A DNA stretch of 64,000 bases from Candidatus Saccharimonadota bacterium (lineage in GTDB: Bacteria > Patescibacteriota > Saccharimonadia > Saccharimonadales > Saccharimonadaceae): assembly GCA_017540545.1 (NCBI GenBank), contig JAFYAV010000001.1, forward strand, positions 1 through 64,000. Reading direction: 5' to 3'. Under the pieces are notes generated by a model, which worked only from the letters and a program-made list of their open reading frames with translations, did no database searches and was not told the origin of the DNA. The first letter of the stretch is position 1. The number at the start of each line of letters is the position of its first letter. Shown here piece after piece: positions 26,096 through 35,544 of this stretch. A program made the translations under genes and the position numbers.

Positions 26096-26286
26096 CGCTG
26101 CCCTTTCTTTTAGTTATTTATATCTGTTATTATACTATATTTTCCCCACATCGCCCAGATTACATACCGACCACCTTTACTACCCAAAGACATATAACGC
26201 AATATGATTGACAAATTCGCAATTACATGCAAAAATATTACAAATTCGGAACAAGTACATTTACATTTTTCCTAGGAGGTTCCCAC

Positions 26287-27549
26287 ATGGAATTGCAAAA
26301 CATTCTACACGAATTGGCGTCAATTAATTTGAGCGCGCTCAAGATAACAACGCCGTCAAACCAAAACGACCTAAAAAAGGCATTCATCGAAGCCTTTAGT
26401 AGAGGGCGCTTCACCAATCCACTCTTCACCTATAACCTAGACGCAAACGAAACAACAGCAAAAAGAAGGTTATTAACCCAGCTTAAAGACGAAACAAATC
26501 GCGCAATCGACAATATTGCAGATTCACCCGAGCGCCTTGCATACTGCCTGCTCAAATCAGCCATCGCAAAGAAGCTCACGCTATGCGACGTTTCCGATTC
26601 TATACTGAGAGGAGACGACACCTCGACTAAGGTCCTCATCGCGAAATTCTACGGAAAAATAACCGACGAGTTACTGAATGTCGCAAGAGACTTGGCGTCA
26701 GGAAAATCCATCGCAAACCCATACTTGGAACAAACGATGCGAATCGTATCTCCGGAACGCGCCGACCGCTGCGCCAAGAAGTATACGCCCGAAGAGATGA
26801 AAGAAGTGTTCGATTATGCACTCGACATTTATGGATTATCGAAAGAGTGGCAAGCCATCGTAACCAATGAACCCCGGTACACGAGCATTACGGTAAACGC
26901 AAACGACGAACGAGGACGCGTTATCGCAATTCCGGCAACAAGAAAACCGGAAAACATCCTCAAAGTCATCCAGTTAGCGGCGCACGAGATAGAAACACAC
27001 GTAAGGCATAATGCGAATTGCTATTATTTACTTTACGAAACATGCGGCAGTATTTCGCTACTCAACGCAACCACACTGGAATGCGTAGCCCTCGACTCGC
27101 CCTACATTGAAGGGCTTGCAAAAATCGCCGACGCCATCACGACTAAAAGATGTCTCGGCGACGAAAGCGGCGCTCCTCATCCATGGTATGTGCTCGCCGC
27201 CCAAAAAGCAGCCGAAGGTAATACCTTCGCTCAGGTGGCGGAGTATATCTATGAAAACTGCGGTAGGAATCCCGAAGAGTGTTGGAAAATTACAACGCGC
27301 ACTTTCCGCGGGTGTAGTGATCCCAGTACCCCTTCCGGATTTGCGAATCCAAACGGAATACAGTACCTGGATGGATACGTGCGGGCAATCGCTCACTACA
27401 ACGACCCCGCCGTATTCAACTATGGAAAATTTAATCAACAGAACATTCAATTGTTCAGAGAAACCACAGGTAAGGATCTTGGCACTTTTCCGCCCCACCT
27501 GGCATATCAGGATTTCGTTCCGTTGCTTCTCAATCAATTTTGTAACTAA
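26287..27549 (+). CDS. DUF1704 (MATCAP-like) putative zinc carboxypeptidase
   Basis: A 420-residue protein. HEIETHVRHNAN fits the HExxxH zinc motif of the DUF1704/MATCAP family, and YIEGLAKIADAI matches the region of its QEGLA motif, which supplies a further ligand. The family includes tyrosine carboxypeptidases; the bacterial substrates are not known. AGGAGG sits 7 nt before the ATG at 26287, so the longer frame from 26227 is not used. Unlike its leaderless neighbours it has a true leader, its own terminator and frequent AGA/AGG codons, which suggests separate acquisition. Transcribed against thrS. Confidence 0.72.
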   Translation: MELQNILHELASINLSALKITTPSNQNDLKKAFIEAFSRGRFTNPLFTYNLDANETTAKRRLLTQLKDETNRAIDNIADSPERLAYCLLKSAIAKKLTLCDVSDSILRGDDTSTKVLIAKFYGKITDELLNVARDLASGKSIANPYLEQTMRIVSPERADRCAKKYTPEEMKEVFDYALDIYGLSKEWQAIVTNEPRYTSITVNANDERGRVIAIPATRKPENILKVIQLAAHEIETHVRHNANCYYLLYETCGSISLLNATTLECVALDSPYIEGLAKIADAITTKRCLGDESGAPHPWYVLAAQKAAEGNTFAQVAEYIYENCGRNPEECWKITTRTFRGCSDPSTPSGFANPNGIQYLDGYVRAIAHYNDPAVFNYGKFNQQNIQLFRETTGKDLGTFPPHLAYQDFVPLLLNQFCN

Positions 27550-28625: not shown

Positions 28626-29126
28626 ATGAAAACCGACATCGTTTTATATAATACCGAGGAGGAAAGCGTAAAAAAAGAAAAACGACGCTTCAAGATTCTC
28701 ATCGCCGTTGCTTTTTTCTTCGTTCTGGCTTCTTTTGTTACATTAATAATCAGGATAATCATACGCAACAACGCAATCAGCGCCGAACCACCAAAAATTA
28801 GCGTCGAAGACCCAGACAATTCTGACGTTATCCACGTCATAGAGAATGACGACTTTGAAATCCCTAAGTTCGAACAAATAAATACAACTTGGTCCTGCGG
28901 AAACGGCGCATCTATAATTCAAATTACTAATGAGCGTCTATATAGGAATCTAACCACCGGTGCGCAAAGCAGCTACTCCTACGATGCAGAAAATGGCATT
29001 CTGTCTATAAATTCCCCAATTAGCACCGAGTATTACTTAACAATTGACGGTTCCCTACTACGGATGACCAACTCGACAACCGACGCCGTAATCGAATGTG
29101 AACGGAGAGAAAACTATGAAAAATAA
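28626..29126 (+). CDS. Single-pass membrane protein of unknown function
   Basis: A 166-residue protein: charged cytoplasmic N-terminus (~25 residues), a long membrane helix (ILIAVAFFFVLASFVTLIIRIII), then an outer region with a small beta-rich domain (TTWSCGNGASIIQITNERLYR ... YDAENGILSINSP). The final codons overlap the start of the pilin-GH114 gene by 11 nt, so the two are an operon and may work together at the surface. Confidence 0.6.
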   Translation: MKTDIVLYNTEEESVKKEKRRFKILIAVAFFFVLASFVTLIIRIIIRNNAISAEPPKISVEDPDNSDVIHVIENDDFEIPKFEQINTTWSCGNGASIIQITNERLYRNLTTGAQSSYSYDAENGILSINSPISTEYYLTIDGSLLRMTNSTTDAVIECERRENYEK

Positions 29127-31626
29127 ATATTTCTTACTCAGCGCCCTCTTTATTGCCCTATTCTGTTCGTTTCTACTCACCAATAACTGCCACGCGCTAA
29201 ACAGTTATAGTGGACAAATCAAGTTAGTCAAACATTTCAAGACCGGCAATAAATGCGGCGTCGGAACTGATTGTTTATATGACGACGGCAGCGGAGAGAT
29301 GCAGAGCTTTGCCCTGACGCCGAGACATATCGTGCTATCATATCTAATTGACTCTGGCAGCGCCAAAGATTACAAGGAAACGACGCGTAGTCGTATCTAT
29401 TTCATCGACCGTAAAACTTTCAAAATTGCAAAAATCCTACCAGATAAAAAGAACTTCACATGCAACAAATACGGCAATCCGGGCTGCTACAATCACCCAG
29501 GTAGTCTTGCCTACAATAGCAAAACCGGAAAACTACTTCTGGCCACCCAAGCCGGCACTTTCGTTTTTGATGACGTAACTATGCAATATGAAAGCAGAAT
29601 GACTGGCCTGCACAATACCAAAATCGCCTACAATCAAGTACGCAACTGGTATTGGACCGGCTTTGAGGGCAATACGATTAAAGATGTCAAAATGAGCACT
29701 ATCCAAAAAACAAGCGTTTCCAAATATCCAAACGCAAAATACGAGGAGAATCCTTCAACCTGGAAAGATTACCTGGTAGTAAACAACTACATGGGCGGCA
29801 AAGACGCAATTCTGCGTTTCTATAATTATAAAAATTCCAAACTAGTAAAAGATATCGGCATCTCTCAAAAAGCCATCAAGACGGACGTCGTAAAAAGTGT
29901 TCAATTCGATAGCGATGGCACCGCTTTCCTCATGACGCCACTAAATAACGAAGGTAACGCACGCGGCCGAGGTGCCGCAATATATGCCATTAGCGGCAAA
30001 GACCTCGGCATTAGCGAATCTACAAATACAGACCCTAACAGCAAGCCGACCTCGGGCAATAATACCGGTTCTAGCGACAACTGCGGAAGCGGCGACGAAT
30101 CGTGCGATTGCGGCGTCGAGTCTACTAAAAGAGCCGCCGGAGCCAAGTCTAACGAGCCTGAAATAGAATTCGGCGTAACGCGAGACGTCAAATGTACATC
30201 CATCCTGCCAGACAGCCTCTGTAATCCAAATGGTGGCGGTCAACAAATAGCAGATATTCTCGATCTTGGCATCAATACTATGACTTTCGGCGTCGGCATA
30301 ATTGGCTCTTTCGCAATCATTATTTGTGGCTTTATGGTAATGTCGGCCGGTGGCAACTCATCACAAGTCGAAGCGGCGAAAAAACGTTTTTACGGCGTCG
30401 TCATAGGCTTAATAACATGGTGTGTTTTCTCAATGGCGCTAAATCTGTTTATCGTTACGGAATCGAGCAAGCCTTCGCAGGTCTCTACTAGCTCCGGAGG
30501 AAGCAGTAGCAACACTAGCTCTGGAGGCAAAGCTAGCAGTGGTAGCACAGGAAGCGGCGGCTCTAGCGGTTCAGCGTCGAAGCAAGGAAAAACGGCCGCT
30601 CAGACCGAAATTCTTCCAACCTGCATCAAGTTAACCGTCGACTCTATCGTCGTAGCAGTCGGTAAAACTAAAACAATCGGCTATACCATCTACCCCGCTA
30701 ATGCGACTAATAAAGATGTCATTTGGTCTTCAAAAAACTCCAAAATTGCCACCGTCAATAAAAAAGGCGTTGTGACCGGCGTATCGGCAGGAACAACCAC
30801 GGTAGAAGCAAAAACCAAAAACGGCAAAACTGCTACGGTTTCCGTAACCGTTGGCAGCCAAACCTCCACTCCAGAAAAAAGCTACGGCGTATTCTTAGGG
30901 CTCGACTACGAGGATGGCGAAAAAGTGCTAAGCAAAATGTACAAGTATAAACTTATCGTAATTGATTTCCAGGAGCATTACCCGAAATCATACATCGACA
31001 AGTTACATGCTAAAGGTATCAAGGTATACTCCTATCTAAATATTGGCTCTGTCGAAATGCACGGTCGATACTATTCGAACCGATTTAATGATTACTATCT
31101 GGATCACTATGAAAACTGGAAGGACGAAATGTGGGTCGACGTATCTAAAACCAAATTCCAAACTTTCATCACTGACGAATTAGAGCCATCCATCCGCAAA
31201 AAAGGCGTTGACGGCTACTTCATCGATAATACTGATGTTTATGCAAATTACAAAAAAGACAAAATCTACAAAGGCCTCCAGACCATGCTAAGAAAAATCC
31301 ACAGCTACGGCCTGCCAGTCCTAATCAATGGTGGCGACGAATTCGTCTCGCGCGCTATATCCGACGGCAGCTACACAAGCCTATTCGATGGTGTCAATCA
31401 GGAAGAAGTATTCACCCTAATCAACTTCGACAACAAAACTTACCACAAACAGAAGTCAGATGAAACTAAGTATTACAAAAATTATCTCCAGACCGTTAAA
31501 AAAGCCGGACTCATGGTTTATCTGCTAGAATACGGCTCCGATCCTAACCTAGAAAAACAAATGAAAAGCTACTGCAACCTTAATGGCTTTTCATATTATT
31601 ACGCCAAGACCCTGAAGCTAGAATAA
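29116..31626 (+). CDS. Pilin-helix protein fused to Big_2 and GH114-like domains
   Basis: An 836-residue multidomain surface protein. Residues 1-28 are a signal peptide (FLLSALFIALFCSFLL); 30-310 look like repeated beta blades; ~388-448 are two membrane helices flanking AAKKRF, the T4SS pilin (VirB2/TrbC-like) pattern; a Ser/Gly linker follows; ~498-582 are a bacterial Ig-like Big_2 domain (KLTVDSIVVAVGKTKTIGYTIYPANAT); ~588-836 form a TIM-barrel like GH114 endo-alpha-1,4-polygalactosaminidases (YSYLNIGSVE, GVDGYFIDNTD, LINGGDEF). The ATG at 29116 follows GGAGAG and gives a clean signal peptide. It would place a glycan-cutting domain on the cell surface or a secretion structure. The catalytic activity is inferred. 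Confidence 0.75.
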   Translation: MKNKYFLLSALFIALFCSFLLTNNCHALNSYSGQIKLVKHFKTGNKCGVGTDCLYDDGSGEMQSFALTPRHIVLSYLIDSGSAKDYKETTRSRIYFIDRKTFKIAKILPDKKNFTCNKYGNPGCYNHPGSLAYNSKTGKLLLATQAGTFVFDDVTMQYESRMTGLHNTKIAYNQVRNWYWTGFEGNTIKDVKMSTIQKTSVSKYPNAKYEENPSTWKDYLVVNNYMGGKDAILRFYNYKNSKLVKDIGISQKAIKTDVVKSVQFDSDGTAFLMTPLNNEGNARGRGAAIYAISGKDLGISESTNTDPNSKPTSGNNTGSSDNCGSGDESCDCGVESTKRAAGAKSNEPEIEFGVTRDVKCTSILPDSLCNPNGGGQQIADILDLGINTMTFGVGIIGSFAIIICGFMVMSAGGNSSQVEAAKKRFYGVVIGLITWCVFSMALNLFIVTESSKPSQVSTSSGGSSSNTSSGGKASSGSTGSGGSSGSASKQGKTAAQTEILPTCIKLTVDSIVVAVGKTKTIGYTIYPANATNKDVIWSSKNSKIATVNKKGVVTGVSAGTTTVEAKTKNGKTATVSVTVGSQTSTPEKSYGVFLGLDYEDGEKVLSKMYKYKLIVIDFQEHYPKSYIDKLHAKGIKVYSYLNIGSVEMHGRYYSNRFNDYYLDHYENWKDEMWVDVSKTKFQTFITDELEPSIRKKGVDGYFIDNTDVYANYKKDKIYKGLQTMLRKIHSYGLPVLINGGDEFVSRAISDGSYTSLFDGVNQEEVFTLINFDNKTYHKQKSDETKYYKNYLQTVKKAGLMVYLLEYGSDPNLEKQMKSYCNLNGFSYYYAKTLKLE

Positions 31627-31629
31627 AGA

Positions 31630-32583
31630 TTAACCTAGCGCAGCTATAACGAAGTTCGTAATTGCAAATGCGGCTAAAGTTACAATCAAACCAATAACAG
31701 CATAAAGAATCGTCTTCTGGGCAGACTGAATTTTTTGCGGATTACCAGCAGATACCATGTAGCGGACGCCGCCAATTACTATAACAATCACAGCGACAAT
31801 ACCAATCCATGTATACACGGTAGAAATCACATTCATCGTCACATTCTGAAGTTGCTTTTCGCCACCGCTGACCGGCGAATAAGCACAATAGTATTTCTCT
31901 AAATCGGTCAAATCAGCCCCTCCGCAATCAAGATTATCGCGCACAATCTTCTCCGGCTTATAAGACTCATACGGCTTCGACGTCTCAGCCTTTTTCGCTG
32001 ACGAATTCTGAGTCCTTTGTTGTGTAGTTTGAGTTTTCTTACGACTACTAACACTTTCATCACTACGCGAAGTCGAATTGCTCCCTGAGCTACTGCTCTT
32101 GCCATCTATCTTTGGATCATATCGCCACACAATCGACCAACTTCGACGTTTATACTTCTTAATTGATATTTCTTTGCCTGAACTATCACCTTGCTTTCCG
32201 TCGTAATTCTTTGTAGCTTCCGCGAGCTTACAGTCACCAATATACTGCGCCGTATGCGTATGGCCATGCATTAAAATATCGCCACGCTTAAGCGTATTAC
32301 AATCGTTGAGATTTACCTTCTTTGTGACATTCGTAAAATCTTTATCCTTTTTAAGATATCCGTCCAACTGCCCAGTACCAGCCATCCATTTTTTTTGCGT
32401 CGTAGGCTTATCTTTCAGAGTGCCCGCACCGGCATAATGCCAACCGAAAAATACAAGTGTCGAACATTTATAATCCGGCCCAGTTGGATGCTTGAGGTCA
32501 TAACCATGCTCTTTACTATTGGCAGTATCAATAATCCAATTAACTGCCTTATCGATGGTGGCTTGTTTTTCCGCTTCTGTCAT
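31630..32583 (-). CDS. NlpC/P60-like hydrolase fused to a T4SS pilin helix pair
   Basis: A 317-residue protein. Residues 1-150 resemble an NlpC/P60-type cysteine peptidase with Cys40 in DYKCSTLVFFGWHY and His110 in RGDILMHGHTHTAQYIG; 160-225 are a Ser/Lys/Thr linker; 245-315 contain two membrane helices with GGVRYMVSAGNPQKIQSAQKTI between, the T4SS pilin (PF18895-like) pattern. There is no N-terminal signal peptide, so how the enzyme domain crosses the membrane is unclear. Such enzymes cut peptidoglycan stem peptides. The start overlaps the upstream gene by 4 nt (ATGA). It is convergent with the pilin-GH114 gene, 3 nt away. Confidence 0.78.
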   Translation of the reverse strand: MTEAEKQATIDKAVNWIIDTANSKEHGYDLKHPTGPDYKCSTLVFFGWHYAGAGTLKDKPTTQKKWMAGTGQLDGYLKKDKDFTNVTKKVNLNDCNTLKRGDILMHGHTHTAQYIGDCKLAEATKNYDGKQGDSSGKEISIKKYKRRSWSIVWRYDPKIDGKSSSSGSNSTSRSDESVSSRKKTQTTQQRTQNSSAKKAETSKPYESYKPEKIVRDNLDCGGADLTDLEKYYCAYSPVSGGEKQLQNVTMNVISTVYTWIGIVAVIVIVIGGVRYMVSAGNPQKIQSAQKTILYAVIGLIVTLAAFAITNFVIAALG

Positions 32584-33443
32584 TTCAATTGCTCCATAAT
32601 GTCATAACTCATTGCCGCAACGCTTGTCGCACATAAACTTGGTGCATAGAGGAAATCGTCGTATGATTCGTTAATATATTCCTCGTCTACTTCTGAAAGG
32701 TCAATAGCATCTTCGCAATTATAGCTTTCACAACCATTAATAATCTTTTGAGAAGCCTCATAAATATCATATTGGATTGACGTCAAATAACTATGCGCAT
32801 ATTGGCTAGCATAATCCGATCCTATACCCTCAAGTTTGTCCATATACTCAACAATAATCGGAATATCATATCGACTCTCTTCTTCACCGACCCCATCGTC
32901 TTCGACCTCCTTATCGCCAAGTATATCGTAGTATCGTTGTCCGAACTCTTTATAGGTAAGCTCTAACGAATCAAAAACATCGTCTAGTGTCGGCGCAGGG
33001 TTATTAATATAAAAATCTAAAAACTCAATATCGGCCTTCTGCTTATTAATTAGTTCCTGCGCTCGTTCATTCAAGCCGTCGCCAATACTGTCGGTAAAAA
33101 TCTTGTTCAAAACGCGAGCACGGCCGATGTACTCTTTTGCCTCTTCCTTGTCGCCGCCCATAATAACATCATATATTTTATATTTTTGATTTTCCTCATA
33201 GGGCGGAAGCTTCTCGTTCGACTCTTCGCCGCTAATAAGATAATTAAAAAAATTGAGCGCAACTTGACTTTTTACCATCTTCTGACTAGCGATTTTTCCC
33301 GAAAACACAACAACTACAATCAGTACGAGAGCTACCAAAGGTAAAACGATAAACCACGCCTTTTGGTGCCCCTTCGTTTTTGTTGCTGCGAACTCAGGAT
33401 TGTGCATCTGGTTCATAAATGATTGTTGAAAATTATCTTGCAT
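32580..33443 (-). CDS. Membrane-anchored helical protein of unknown function
   Basis: A 287-residue protein: a Gln/Asn-rich cytoplasmic N-terminus, one membrane helix (WFIVLPLVALVLIVVVVF) and a long, acidic, mostly helical outer domain. Family not recognised. It overlaps the NlpC-pilin gene by 4 nt (ATGA), so it is cotranscribed and probably a partner of that enzyme. Confidence 0.65.
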   Translation of the reverse strand: MQDNFQQSFMNQMHNPEFAATKTKGHQKAWFIVLPLVALVLIVVVVFSGKIASQKMVKSQVALNFFNYLISGEESNEKLPPYEENQKYKIYDVIMGGDKEEAKEYIGRARVLNKIFTDSIGDGLNERAQELINKQKADIEFLDFYINNPAPTLDDVFDSLELTYKEFGQRYYDILGDKEVEDDGVGEEESRYDIPIIVEYMDKLEGIGSDYASQYAHSYLTSIQYDIYEASQKIINGCESYNCEDAIDLSEVDEEYINESYDDFLYAPSLCATSVAAMSYDIMEQLK

Positions 33444-34182: not shown

Positions 34183-34477
34183 ATTTAAAACCTCGTACAC
34201 TTAATTTGGCAATTACCTTGCCGACCACCACTCCGTCACCATCATCGCCATCACCTCCGTATTCTATCGCTTCCCCGTTCGCCATTAACATTACATCGCC
34301 CACATCAAAATTTCGACATACCCGACAAAACAGCAATAAACTTCCGTCTTCTGCGCCGGCGCCTCTAGACAAGCCAAACCAGACGCCGAATAACAAAAAA
34401 CACACACTCGCAACGAACCCCGCCTTCAAAAGTAGGCGCACCCCCCTGCGCCATTTTTGTTGTTTTATTTTAAGCAT
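34166..34477 (-). CDS. Reduced signal-peptidase-like protein of the pilus cassette
   Basis: A 103-residue protein with one membrane helix (AGFVASVCFLLFGVWFGL) and a short outer region EDGSLLLF...NFDVGDVMLM that recalls the start of type I signal peptidases (DGSMxP...GDxxLV). The catalytic lysine region is not seen. Pilus islands of Gram-positive bacteria often contain a SipA-like, non-catalytic signal peptidase relative, which fits its place between pilin and sortase. Assignment rests largely on context. Confidence 0.5.
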   Translation of the reverse strand: MLKIKQQKWRRGVRLLLKAGFVASVCFLLFGVWFGLSRGAGAEDGSLLLFCRVCRNFDVGDVMLMANGEAIEYGGDGDDGDGVVVGKVIAKLSVRGFKYEVSE

Positions 34478-35544
34478 TTTGTTTTACGTTGTTTCTTTTT
34501 GTTTGTATGAATAATCGCTAAAGCAATTCCCGTAAATGCTACCGCAAACACGTACGGCATTACGTTTATTACAATACCAGTTAATATACTCCCCTCTTTA
34601 TGGTTCAAAAACTCAACCACATTGCTTAACGATTCTTCGTCGACTACTACGGTTTTTGTCTCCGATAACGAACCCACCACGCCATCTACATATTGCACGT
34701 AACCATTATCATCGACTTCTTCCAAACTATACCTCAAGCCAATTGGCAGCTCATCCCTATTGCCATCGAAACCTATCCATACAGTCTGTCCATCCTTTAG
34801 ATAAATGTAGTCCTCGTCGGCATCTATTGTAATCGCACTGTTCGTTGTTATACTTTCGCCACCATAATCAACAACATCCGACTGGCCATACACCGAAAAC
34901 ACATCACCTTCATGCGCACCATCAATCACTACCCTAAACTTGAAGTATTCATTAGTATTAGCCAAATTACCGGATACAGTTTTCGTAACTTTTACACGAC
35001 TCCGCGTCGCGTCGGATTCAAATACTGGGTAAACTTTGTCACCAGTGTCATGGTCTTTAACCTGCGCCGCCATCGTTGCGATATACTCCCCAGTCGGCTG
35101 TCCATTCTCTAGCTTATTTCGCACGCTAACATAAAAATAGTATTCCTTCTCGTCATCAATCGGATAATTAATCGAATCCGCAGAAGCCGTTTCTCGCACA
35201 ATAAACTTATAATCGCCCAATGCCGTAAATTCATAATCCGTGAGAACCGGCCCACCATATGCTACAACCTCACTATTCGCATCGGGCATACCTACTACGC
35301 TCAATTCAAATTCGTCAGGCATACCATTTACTACTGCTGGATTCCCGGGATCCTGAACCAACGAATAAGTGAACTCGTTATCTACATAACTCTTCGTATT
35401 ATGTATTATGCGCGTAATCTCTATTCAACTCGGGCTATCCAGATTATCCCCCAAAGTCGTACTCGTTGCGTATGTTGCCGACGACGAAGCAAAGCTCGCC
35501 ACCAATAAGCCGAGAATCGCCCCAATTTTCAATATTTTTTTCAT
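34465..35544 (-). pseudogene. Sortase-type pilin (FctA/Spy0128-like) interrupted by one in-frame TGA
   Basis: A 359-codon gene for a secreted, wall-anchored pilin. It has a signal peptide (MKKILKIGAILGLLVASFA), an FctA-like domain (EFTYSLVQ ... YKFIVRETA ... YYFYVSVRN), a second Ig-like domain (VKVTKTVSGNLANTNEYFKFRV) and a C-terminal SILTGIVINVMPYVFAVAF + KKKQRK sorting region of the DUF7601 type. TGA at 35425-35427 (codon 40, LDSPS-stop-IEITRII) falls between signal peptide and first domain. GGAGG precedes the ATG at 35544. It heads pilin - signal-peptidase-like - sortase, and both the pilin and the sortase contain in-frame TGA. Confidence 0.82.

Follow-up and report, generated by a model that had tools for sequence, protein, structure and literature searches.

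The locus analysed here raises the question of whether an epibiotic bacterium joins the helices of a type IV secretion system (T4SS) pilin covalently to a glycoside hydrolase, and, if so, whether such a protein would be part of the secretion apparatus or simply be held in the membrane by its helices. The window, a stretch of 64,000 nucleotides from a Candidatus Saccharimonadota genome, contains in its list of open reading frames a frame at 29116–31626 on the forward strand, which starts with an ATG at 29116 and encodes 836 amino acids. The preliminary description had read this frame as one polypeptide composed, in order, of a signal peptide, a beta-repeat region, a helix pair, a Ser/Gly linker, a Big_2 domain and a GH114-like barrel, and this order is borne out by the reading frame, the Pfam matches and the orthologues. 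The features of the region are as follows:

28626–29126 (+): partner gene encoding 166 aa, with one transmembrane (TM) helix at aa 24–42 (ORF list, TM prediction)
29104–29109 (+): likely ribosome binding site, GGAGAG, 6 bases ahead of the ATG at 29116 (sequence)
29116–29196 (+): signal peptide, aa 1–27 (MKNKYFLLSALFIALFCSFLLTNNCHA), judged by eye from the sequence
29197–30015 (+): N-terminal all-beta domain, aa 28–300, probably a beta-propeller (paralogue alignment, weak model, Foldseek)
30196–30471 (+): T4SS-pilin hairpin, aa 361–452, with TM helices at about 392–410 and 434–452
30472–30615 (+): Ser/Gly linker, aa 453–500 (sequence)
30616–30864 (+): Big_2 domain, aa 501–583 (Pfam and fold match)
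30871–31623 (+): GH114-type (beta/alpha)8 barrel, aa 586–836 (Pfam, alignment, fold overlay)
31225–31227 (+): codon of D704, the predicted catalytic nucleophile, equivalent to Ega3 Asp189 (alignments)
31402–31404 (+): codon of E763, the predicted general acid/base, equivalent to Ega3 Glu247 (alignments; invariant in Chloroflexi GH114 too)
31630–32583 (-): second pilin fusion, with an N-terminal ELLD (endolysin-like) domain and a C-terminal type-A pilin hairpin (Pfam, NF045849)
32580–33443 (-): partner gene encoding 287 aa with one TM helix, overlapping the ELLD-pilin gene by 4 bases (ORF list, TM prediction)

The signal peptide was recognised by eye from positive charges at its start, a hydrophobic core and a CHA sequence resembling a cleavage site. 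Pfam matched the Big_2 domain at aa 504–575 (46.6 bits, E 3.4e-12), and its model matched a solved Big_2 domain with a Z of 15.3. Recurrence of the fusion in other Saccharibacteria, a point raised in the preliminary description, was confirmed in four further genomes of the genus: full-length relatives sharing 54–55% identity are present there in independent assemblies, which rules out an assembly chimera as the source of the fusion. The named records of these relatives are rumen or uncultured Saccharibacteria (RUI495, SRR10912535_bin.78, Tb.RUG.403 and UBA3225); in the contig search, a single-protein query found nothing and an alignment query recovered them.

The C-terminal barrel had been described as GH114-like, and both the Pfam result and the structural model agree with that assignment. 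The Glyco_hydro_114 profile matched aa 611–832 with 74.2 bits, against a gathering score of 27 (E 1.2e-20). The AlphaFold model of the barrel, which is good over most of aa 610–760, could be overlaid on PelA (GH166; Z 19.4), Thermotoga TM1410 (GH191; Z 19.3) and Ega3 (GH114; Z 16.5); Pfam and sequence favour GH114, and the fold Z slightly favours GH166/GH191. The catalytic pair of Ega3 consists of Asp189, verified experimentally as the nucleophile, and Glu247 (PMC12054363). Both acids are kept in the window protein: D704 and E763 align with D189 and E247 of Ega3 and are invariant in the 10 aligned sequences, Chloroflexi GH114 included. The domain is likely to be an active endo-galactosaminidase-type enzyme. 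GH114 enzymes degrade secreted galactosamine polymers (PMC12054363), and a polymer of this kind is the predicted substrate. Since the GH114-pilin fusion occurs in only 5/45 genomes of the genus, it is not a core function. GH114 proteins were also seen in two other genera of the family (G137 and G048), in frames of 453 and 335 aa. The source genome encodes another protein with the same GH114 domain (L049:3874-6969, minus strand; G000:C1:362873-365968), of 1031 aa with one TM helix and many Big_2 repeats, that has no pilin hairpin.

Less can be said of the N-terminal domain. The preliminary description had called it a beta-repeat region, and its all-beta nature stood up in the AlphaFold model; the matches found by Foldseek were mainly beta-propellers, at TM-scores of only 0.2–0.4 and with a poor model as the query (pLDDT 48, low confidence in two runs). 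A sequence profile of the domain gave no convincing match against the PDB. According to the paralogue alignment, the domain is common also to pilin fusions that have no enzyme. A 926-aa protein encoded elsewhere in the genome (L048:9771-12551, minus strand; G000:C1:331770-334550) combines the same propeller-like N-domain with Big_2 repeats and a metallo-beta-lactamase-like motif, HFDGDHWGN, and lacks the pilin hairpin.

The central issue is whether the two helices are those of a pilin. They had been described as having the VirB2/TrbC arrangement; the Pfam evidence for this fell short, and the comparison with array pilins supported a pilin origin. The T4SS_pilin profile (PF18895) matched aa 393–433 with 16.9 bits, under its gathering cut-off of 26.6, and the Pfam scan of the window protein listed no match to TrbC/VirB2 (PF04956), a profile that did match 15 of 57 scanned sequences of the hairpin set at E < 0.001. 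The case for a pilin therefore has to be made from the family. With an HMM built from 32 array type-B pilins only, the window frame scored 86.9 bits (E 4.6e-26); the best of 500 block-shuffled decoys reached 20.7 bits, which rules out a chance hairpin. Profiles of type-B and type-A hairpins were aligned by hhalign with a probability of 97.4; the decoy result carries more weight, because hhalign can be generous on membrane helices. The window hairpin has a C..ILxxxLC motif, and a basic loop (...NSSQVEAAKKRFYG..., loop sequence VEAAKKRF) joins its two TM helices; a net loop charge of +1 or more is found in 92% of type-B hairpins. It could be aligned with other fused copies and with the standalone type-B pilin adjoining a VirB6-like gene. 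Among the four orthologues, pN/pS was 0.07 for the hairpin, equal to the 0.07 of the enzyme domain, and 0.30 for the linker, the fastest-changing part. The window hairpin is nonetheless one of the more diverged copies, ranking 20/32 in likeness to its own array and having neither the ARD motif in the loop nor the terminal proline, both of which are retained in most copies. Taken together, these comparisons support a T4SS-pilin ancestry for the helix pair.

The genome also carries the apparatus to which such a pilin would belong. It has 14 PF18895 matches, and its pilin fusions were counted from searches together with individual stretches. Several of the PF18895 genes make up an array at C1:172.5-175.6 kb, which adjoins a VirB6-like gene; genes for PrgI (PF12666) and a VirB4-type ATPase (PF19044/PF12846) come next, and the locus extends to recF, dnaN and dnaA. 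The first gene of the array (C1:175098-175571) encodes a type-B hairpin with a C..IL...C motif. Such a gene order has been described for Patescibacteria (PMC12102498), and the pilins and the T4SS have been reported to be essential for epibiotic growth of S. epibionticum (PMC10633639). Between the VirB4-type ATPase region and recF-dnaN-dnaA lie genes for a lysozyme-plus-GDSL protein (L136:5750-8457) and then a single-TM protein with a PEGA domain. The window gene is about 140 kb from this cluster on the same contig, and its product is not of the small size of an ordinary pilin.

The window protein is one of dozens of T4SS-pilin/enzyme fusions. Type-B hairpins were found in 44/45 genomes of the genus, many of them in frames of 250–850 aa. 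The 57 sequences scanned with Pfam were the standalone array pilin and 56 hairpin proteins that carry additional domains or extensions; VanY was found in 9 of them, C39_2 in 6, NAGPA and S9/esterase in 2 each, and lysozyme, tyrosine phosphatase, ELLD and GH114 in one each, with Big_2 spacers in 15. Hairpin-enzyme fusions are known from the window's genus and at least two other genera of the family, those outside the genus having been recovered with type-B queries only: genus g2 has GDSL, alpha/beta hydrolase and NlpC/P60 fusions and genus g17 a tyrosine-phosphatase fusion. The source genome encodes a protein with a signal peptide, a tyrosine-phosphatase-like domain (CX5R) and a type-B hairpin (L051:3036-4331; G000:C2:207035-208330), and a similar fusion from another genus (L225) has the opposite domain order. 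Among long frames with strong PF18895 matches in other genera, those examined (L138-L143) were rejected as enzyme fusions, as they consist of a pilin and a polytopic VirB6-like part; their neighbours are a gene for a short pilin and genes for small TM proteins, and they apparently represent a second T4SS type.

The window itself holds a second member of the class. The ELLD-pilin gene is convergent with the GH114 fusion gene, 3 bases apart, and all its matches are over the respective cut-offs (ELLD 43.1 bits, T4SS_pilin 41.1 bits, NF045849 47.4 bits); its product has no obvious signal peptide. Two other genes of the window deserve mention in their own right. The frame at 26227–27549 (+) encodes 440 aa with a match to MATCAP (tyrosine carboxypeptidase) 44 bits over its cut-off, which is unusual in a reduced epibiont genome, and that at 34465–35361 (-) encodes a surface protein with a C-terminal TM helix and repeats resembling Gram-positive pilin isopeptide domains (VTKTVSGN...).

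We then considered how the fused hairpins relate to those of the arrays. In the hairpin tree, which has 103 columns and little resolution, fused and array pilins intermingle, and supported branches force at least 5 changes for the group with C-terminal enzymes. Some fusions pair with an array pilin of their own genome (L102 with L081, support 100/98; L107 inside the L079/L080 group, 95/87), and L087 and L091, labelled as dispersed, are actually array genes. Dispersed hairpins tend to resemble the array pilin of their own genome (mean rank 4.8 of 32; p 0.0005 by shuffling), an effect to which shared species history adds, the species not being independent. On this evidence the fusions appear to have arisen repeatedly from array pilins. 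Column conservation in fused and array hairpins was closely correlated (Pearson 0.90; 2.04 against 1.87 bits per column), and judged by these alignments the conservation of fused hairpins exceeds what a membrane anchor needs.

A further tie to the secretion system is provided by the neighbouring genes. The 166-aa partner of the window protein has a short N-terminal tail, its TM helix and a small extracytoplasmic domain, and its gene overlaps the fusion gene by 11 bases; a homologue likewise overlaps the start of the fusion gene in 4/4 orthologues, and another precedes an enzyme-free propeller-pilin paralogue in L022. An overlapping or abutting gene of 120–330 aa with one N-terminal TM helix was found beside 30/47 fusion genes, as compared with 3/64 of the other genes encoding at least 300 aa (p 6.5e-12), by a criterion set after the first pairs had been seen, with species that are not independent, and with one of the three background matches being in fact the window gene, read from an alternative start. 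The outer domains of the partners cluster by cargo or fusion class, into C39-type, mainly-VanY, CHAP-like and GH114/propeller families. The PEGA-domain gene of the T4SS locus belongs to the mainly-VanY family, which ties the fusions directly to the T4SS machine. The window partner is probably a class-specific membrane partner, acting as a chaperone or docking factor; a role as an immunity protein is disfavoured, since members of its family are found with enzyme-free propeller-pilins too.

Based on these results, we propose, with about even confidence, that the window protein is a derived, VirB2-like pilin that carries cargo and that, via a T4SS structure, places a propeller and an endo-galactosaminidase at the point of contact with the host. 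The signal peptide would route the protein through Sec; the hairpin would lie in the membrane and its basic loop on the inner side, leaving the propeller-like N-domain and the Big_2-GH114 C-domain to face outwards. The hairpin would then be taken into, or docked on, the pilin-based T4SS structure that epibionts need for growth on their host, thereby placing the probable host-binding propeller and the enzyme at the contact site, where the latter may trim galactosamine-rich surface polysaccharide of the host or of the rumen biofilm. Display of the enzyme on the surface is well supported, and the outward topology is predicted from the loop charge and the signal peptide. Assembly of the protein into a T4SS pilus is a likely prediction, and from the conservation and the links to the T4SS locus we infer that the hairpin has kept its contacts with T4SS pilins, with the tip or base of the pilus as the most likely site rather than its shaft. 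Such a position would be needed because the ~90-aa hairpin is preceded by about 360 aa and followed by another 380, which makes the protein unfit as an ordinary pilus subunit. The proposal is favoured by the match to the array-pilin HMM, the low pN/pS, the conservation shared with array hairpins, the likeness to the genome's own array, the pairing with partners and the retained catalytic acids; it is weakened by the divergence of the window hairpin, the distance of its gene from the T4SS locus, the bulky flanking domains and the small number of genomes that carry the fusion.

The main rival to pilus assembly is a plain membrane anchor, in which the hairpin was recruited only to hold enzymes and binding domains on the outside of the cytoplasmic membrane and has no role in a pilus. 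We regard this as a quite possible explanation, though not the preferred one: a positive-inside hairpin would suffice for it, the fusion genes lie dispersed at a distance from the T4SS locus, a filament could hardly accommodate large domains on both sides of the hairpin, and the window copy has diverged. However, an anchor requires hydrophobicity only, and a single TM helix would be simpler, yet the fused hairpins retain those polar and loop residues that are conserved in array pilins, arise repeatedly from them in the likeness of their own genome's array, and share a partner family with the T4SS locus. A second alternative concerns the enzyme, which could serve nutrition by acting on the epibiont's own polymer or on the rumen matrix and have nothing to do with attachment to the host. 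The polymers known to be degraded by GH114 enzymes (PMC12054363) and the second GH114 protein of the genome, with Big_2 repeats and no pilin, would fit such a role, but the pilin fusion and the propeller suggest placement at a contact structure, and we consider nutrition rather unlikely as the explanation. Least probable, and in our estimate quite improbable, is that the fused pilins are effectors resembling polymorphic toxins, with the hairpin guiding the enzyme by way of the T4SS to the surface or the interior of the host and the neighbouring small TM proteins conferring immunity: a constant hairpin with variable enzymes, many of which attack cell walls, and class-specific partners would suit this idea, but the family of the window partner also stands beside enzyme-free propeller-pilins that need no immunity, the signal peptides indicate Sec export first, and GH114 is not an obvious toxin.

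Extending the proposal of a cargo-carrying pilin from the window protein to the whole class, we suggest only tentatively that the Saccharibacterial T4SS pilus carries effectors as covalent pilin fusions. Genes of array pilins would have been duplicated time and again and joined to those of enzymes that cut walls, lipids or glycans, every class having its own membrane partner, and the pilus would serve as a holder that presses exchangeable enzymes to the host, in analogy to the specialised tip proteins of type VI secretion. Pilins fused to enzymes that attack walls, glycans and esters are a direct and testable clue to the function of the T4SS in epibionts, and the set offers numerous named targets whose active sites are predicted. 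Should the fused pilins enter the pilus, they would, to our knowledge, be the first case of a T4SS with an arsenal of enzymes borne on its pilus. The set is apparently undescribed: the accessible text of the papers on the Patescibacteria T4SS describes pilin arrays and their essentiality (PMC12102498; PMC10633639), and no description of pilin-enzyme fusions was found in the literature searched, to which subscription papers and preprints mostly did not belong, a result that is not proof of novelty.

Compared with known systems, the window hairpin is homologous to the VirB2-like pilins of Patescibacteria (PF18895), among them those of the S. epibionticum and N. lyticus arrays (PMC12102498; PMC10633639), and has a basic loop as they do; the source genome likewise has a pilin array together with VirB4, VirB6-like and PrgI genes adjoining recF-dnaN-dnaA. 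Array pilins are mostly of about 90–250 aa and encoded in the T4SS locus, whereas the window pilin has 836 aa, is encoded elsewhere and bears large domains on both sides, one of them including an enzyme. Its barrel shares the fold and the Asp/Glu pair of the GH114/GH166/GH191 endo-alpha-1,4-galactosaminidases (Ega3, the PelA hydrolase domain and TM1410; PMC12054363); unlike the window protein, a predicted enzyme, none of the characterised members covered in PMC12054363 has a T4SS pilin. The VirB1-like hydrolases of monoderm T4SSs (PrgK, TraG and TgaA) are likewise cell-wall-active enzymes tied to a T4SS, and the T4SS locus of the window genome has its own counterpart in the lysozyme-GDSL gene with its PEGA partner. 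We know of no VirB1-type enzyme fused to a pilin, in contrast to the many enzyme classes fused in the Saccharibacterial set. In the type VI secretion system, specialised ('evolved') Hcp, VgrG and PAAR proteins are structural subunits covalently fused to variable enzymes and accompanied by class-specific neighbouring genes. The pilin fusions, known here from sequence, follow the same principle of joining a subunit to an enzyme, with a different machine and unrelated proteins.
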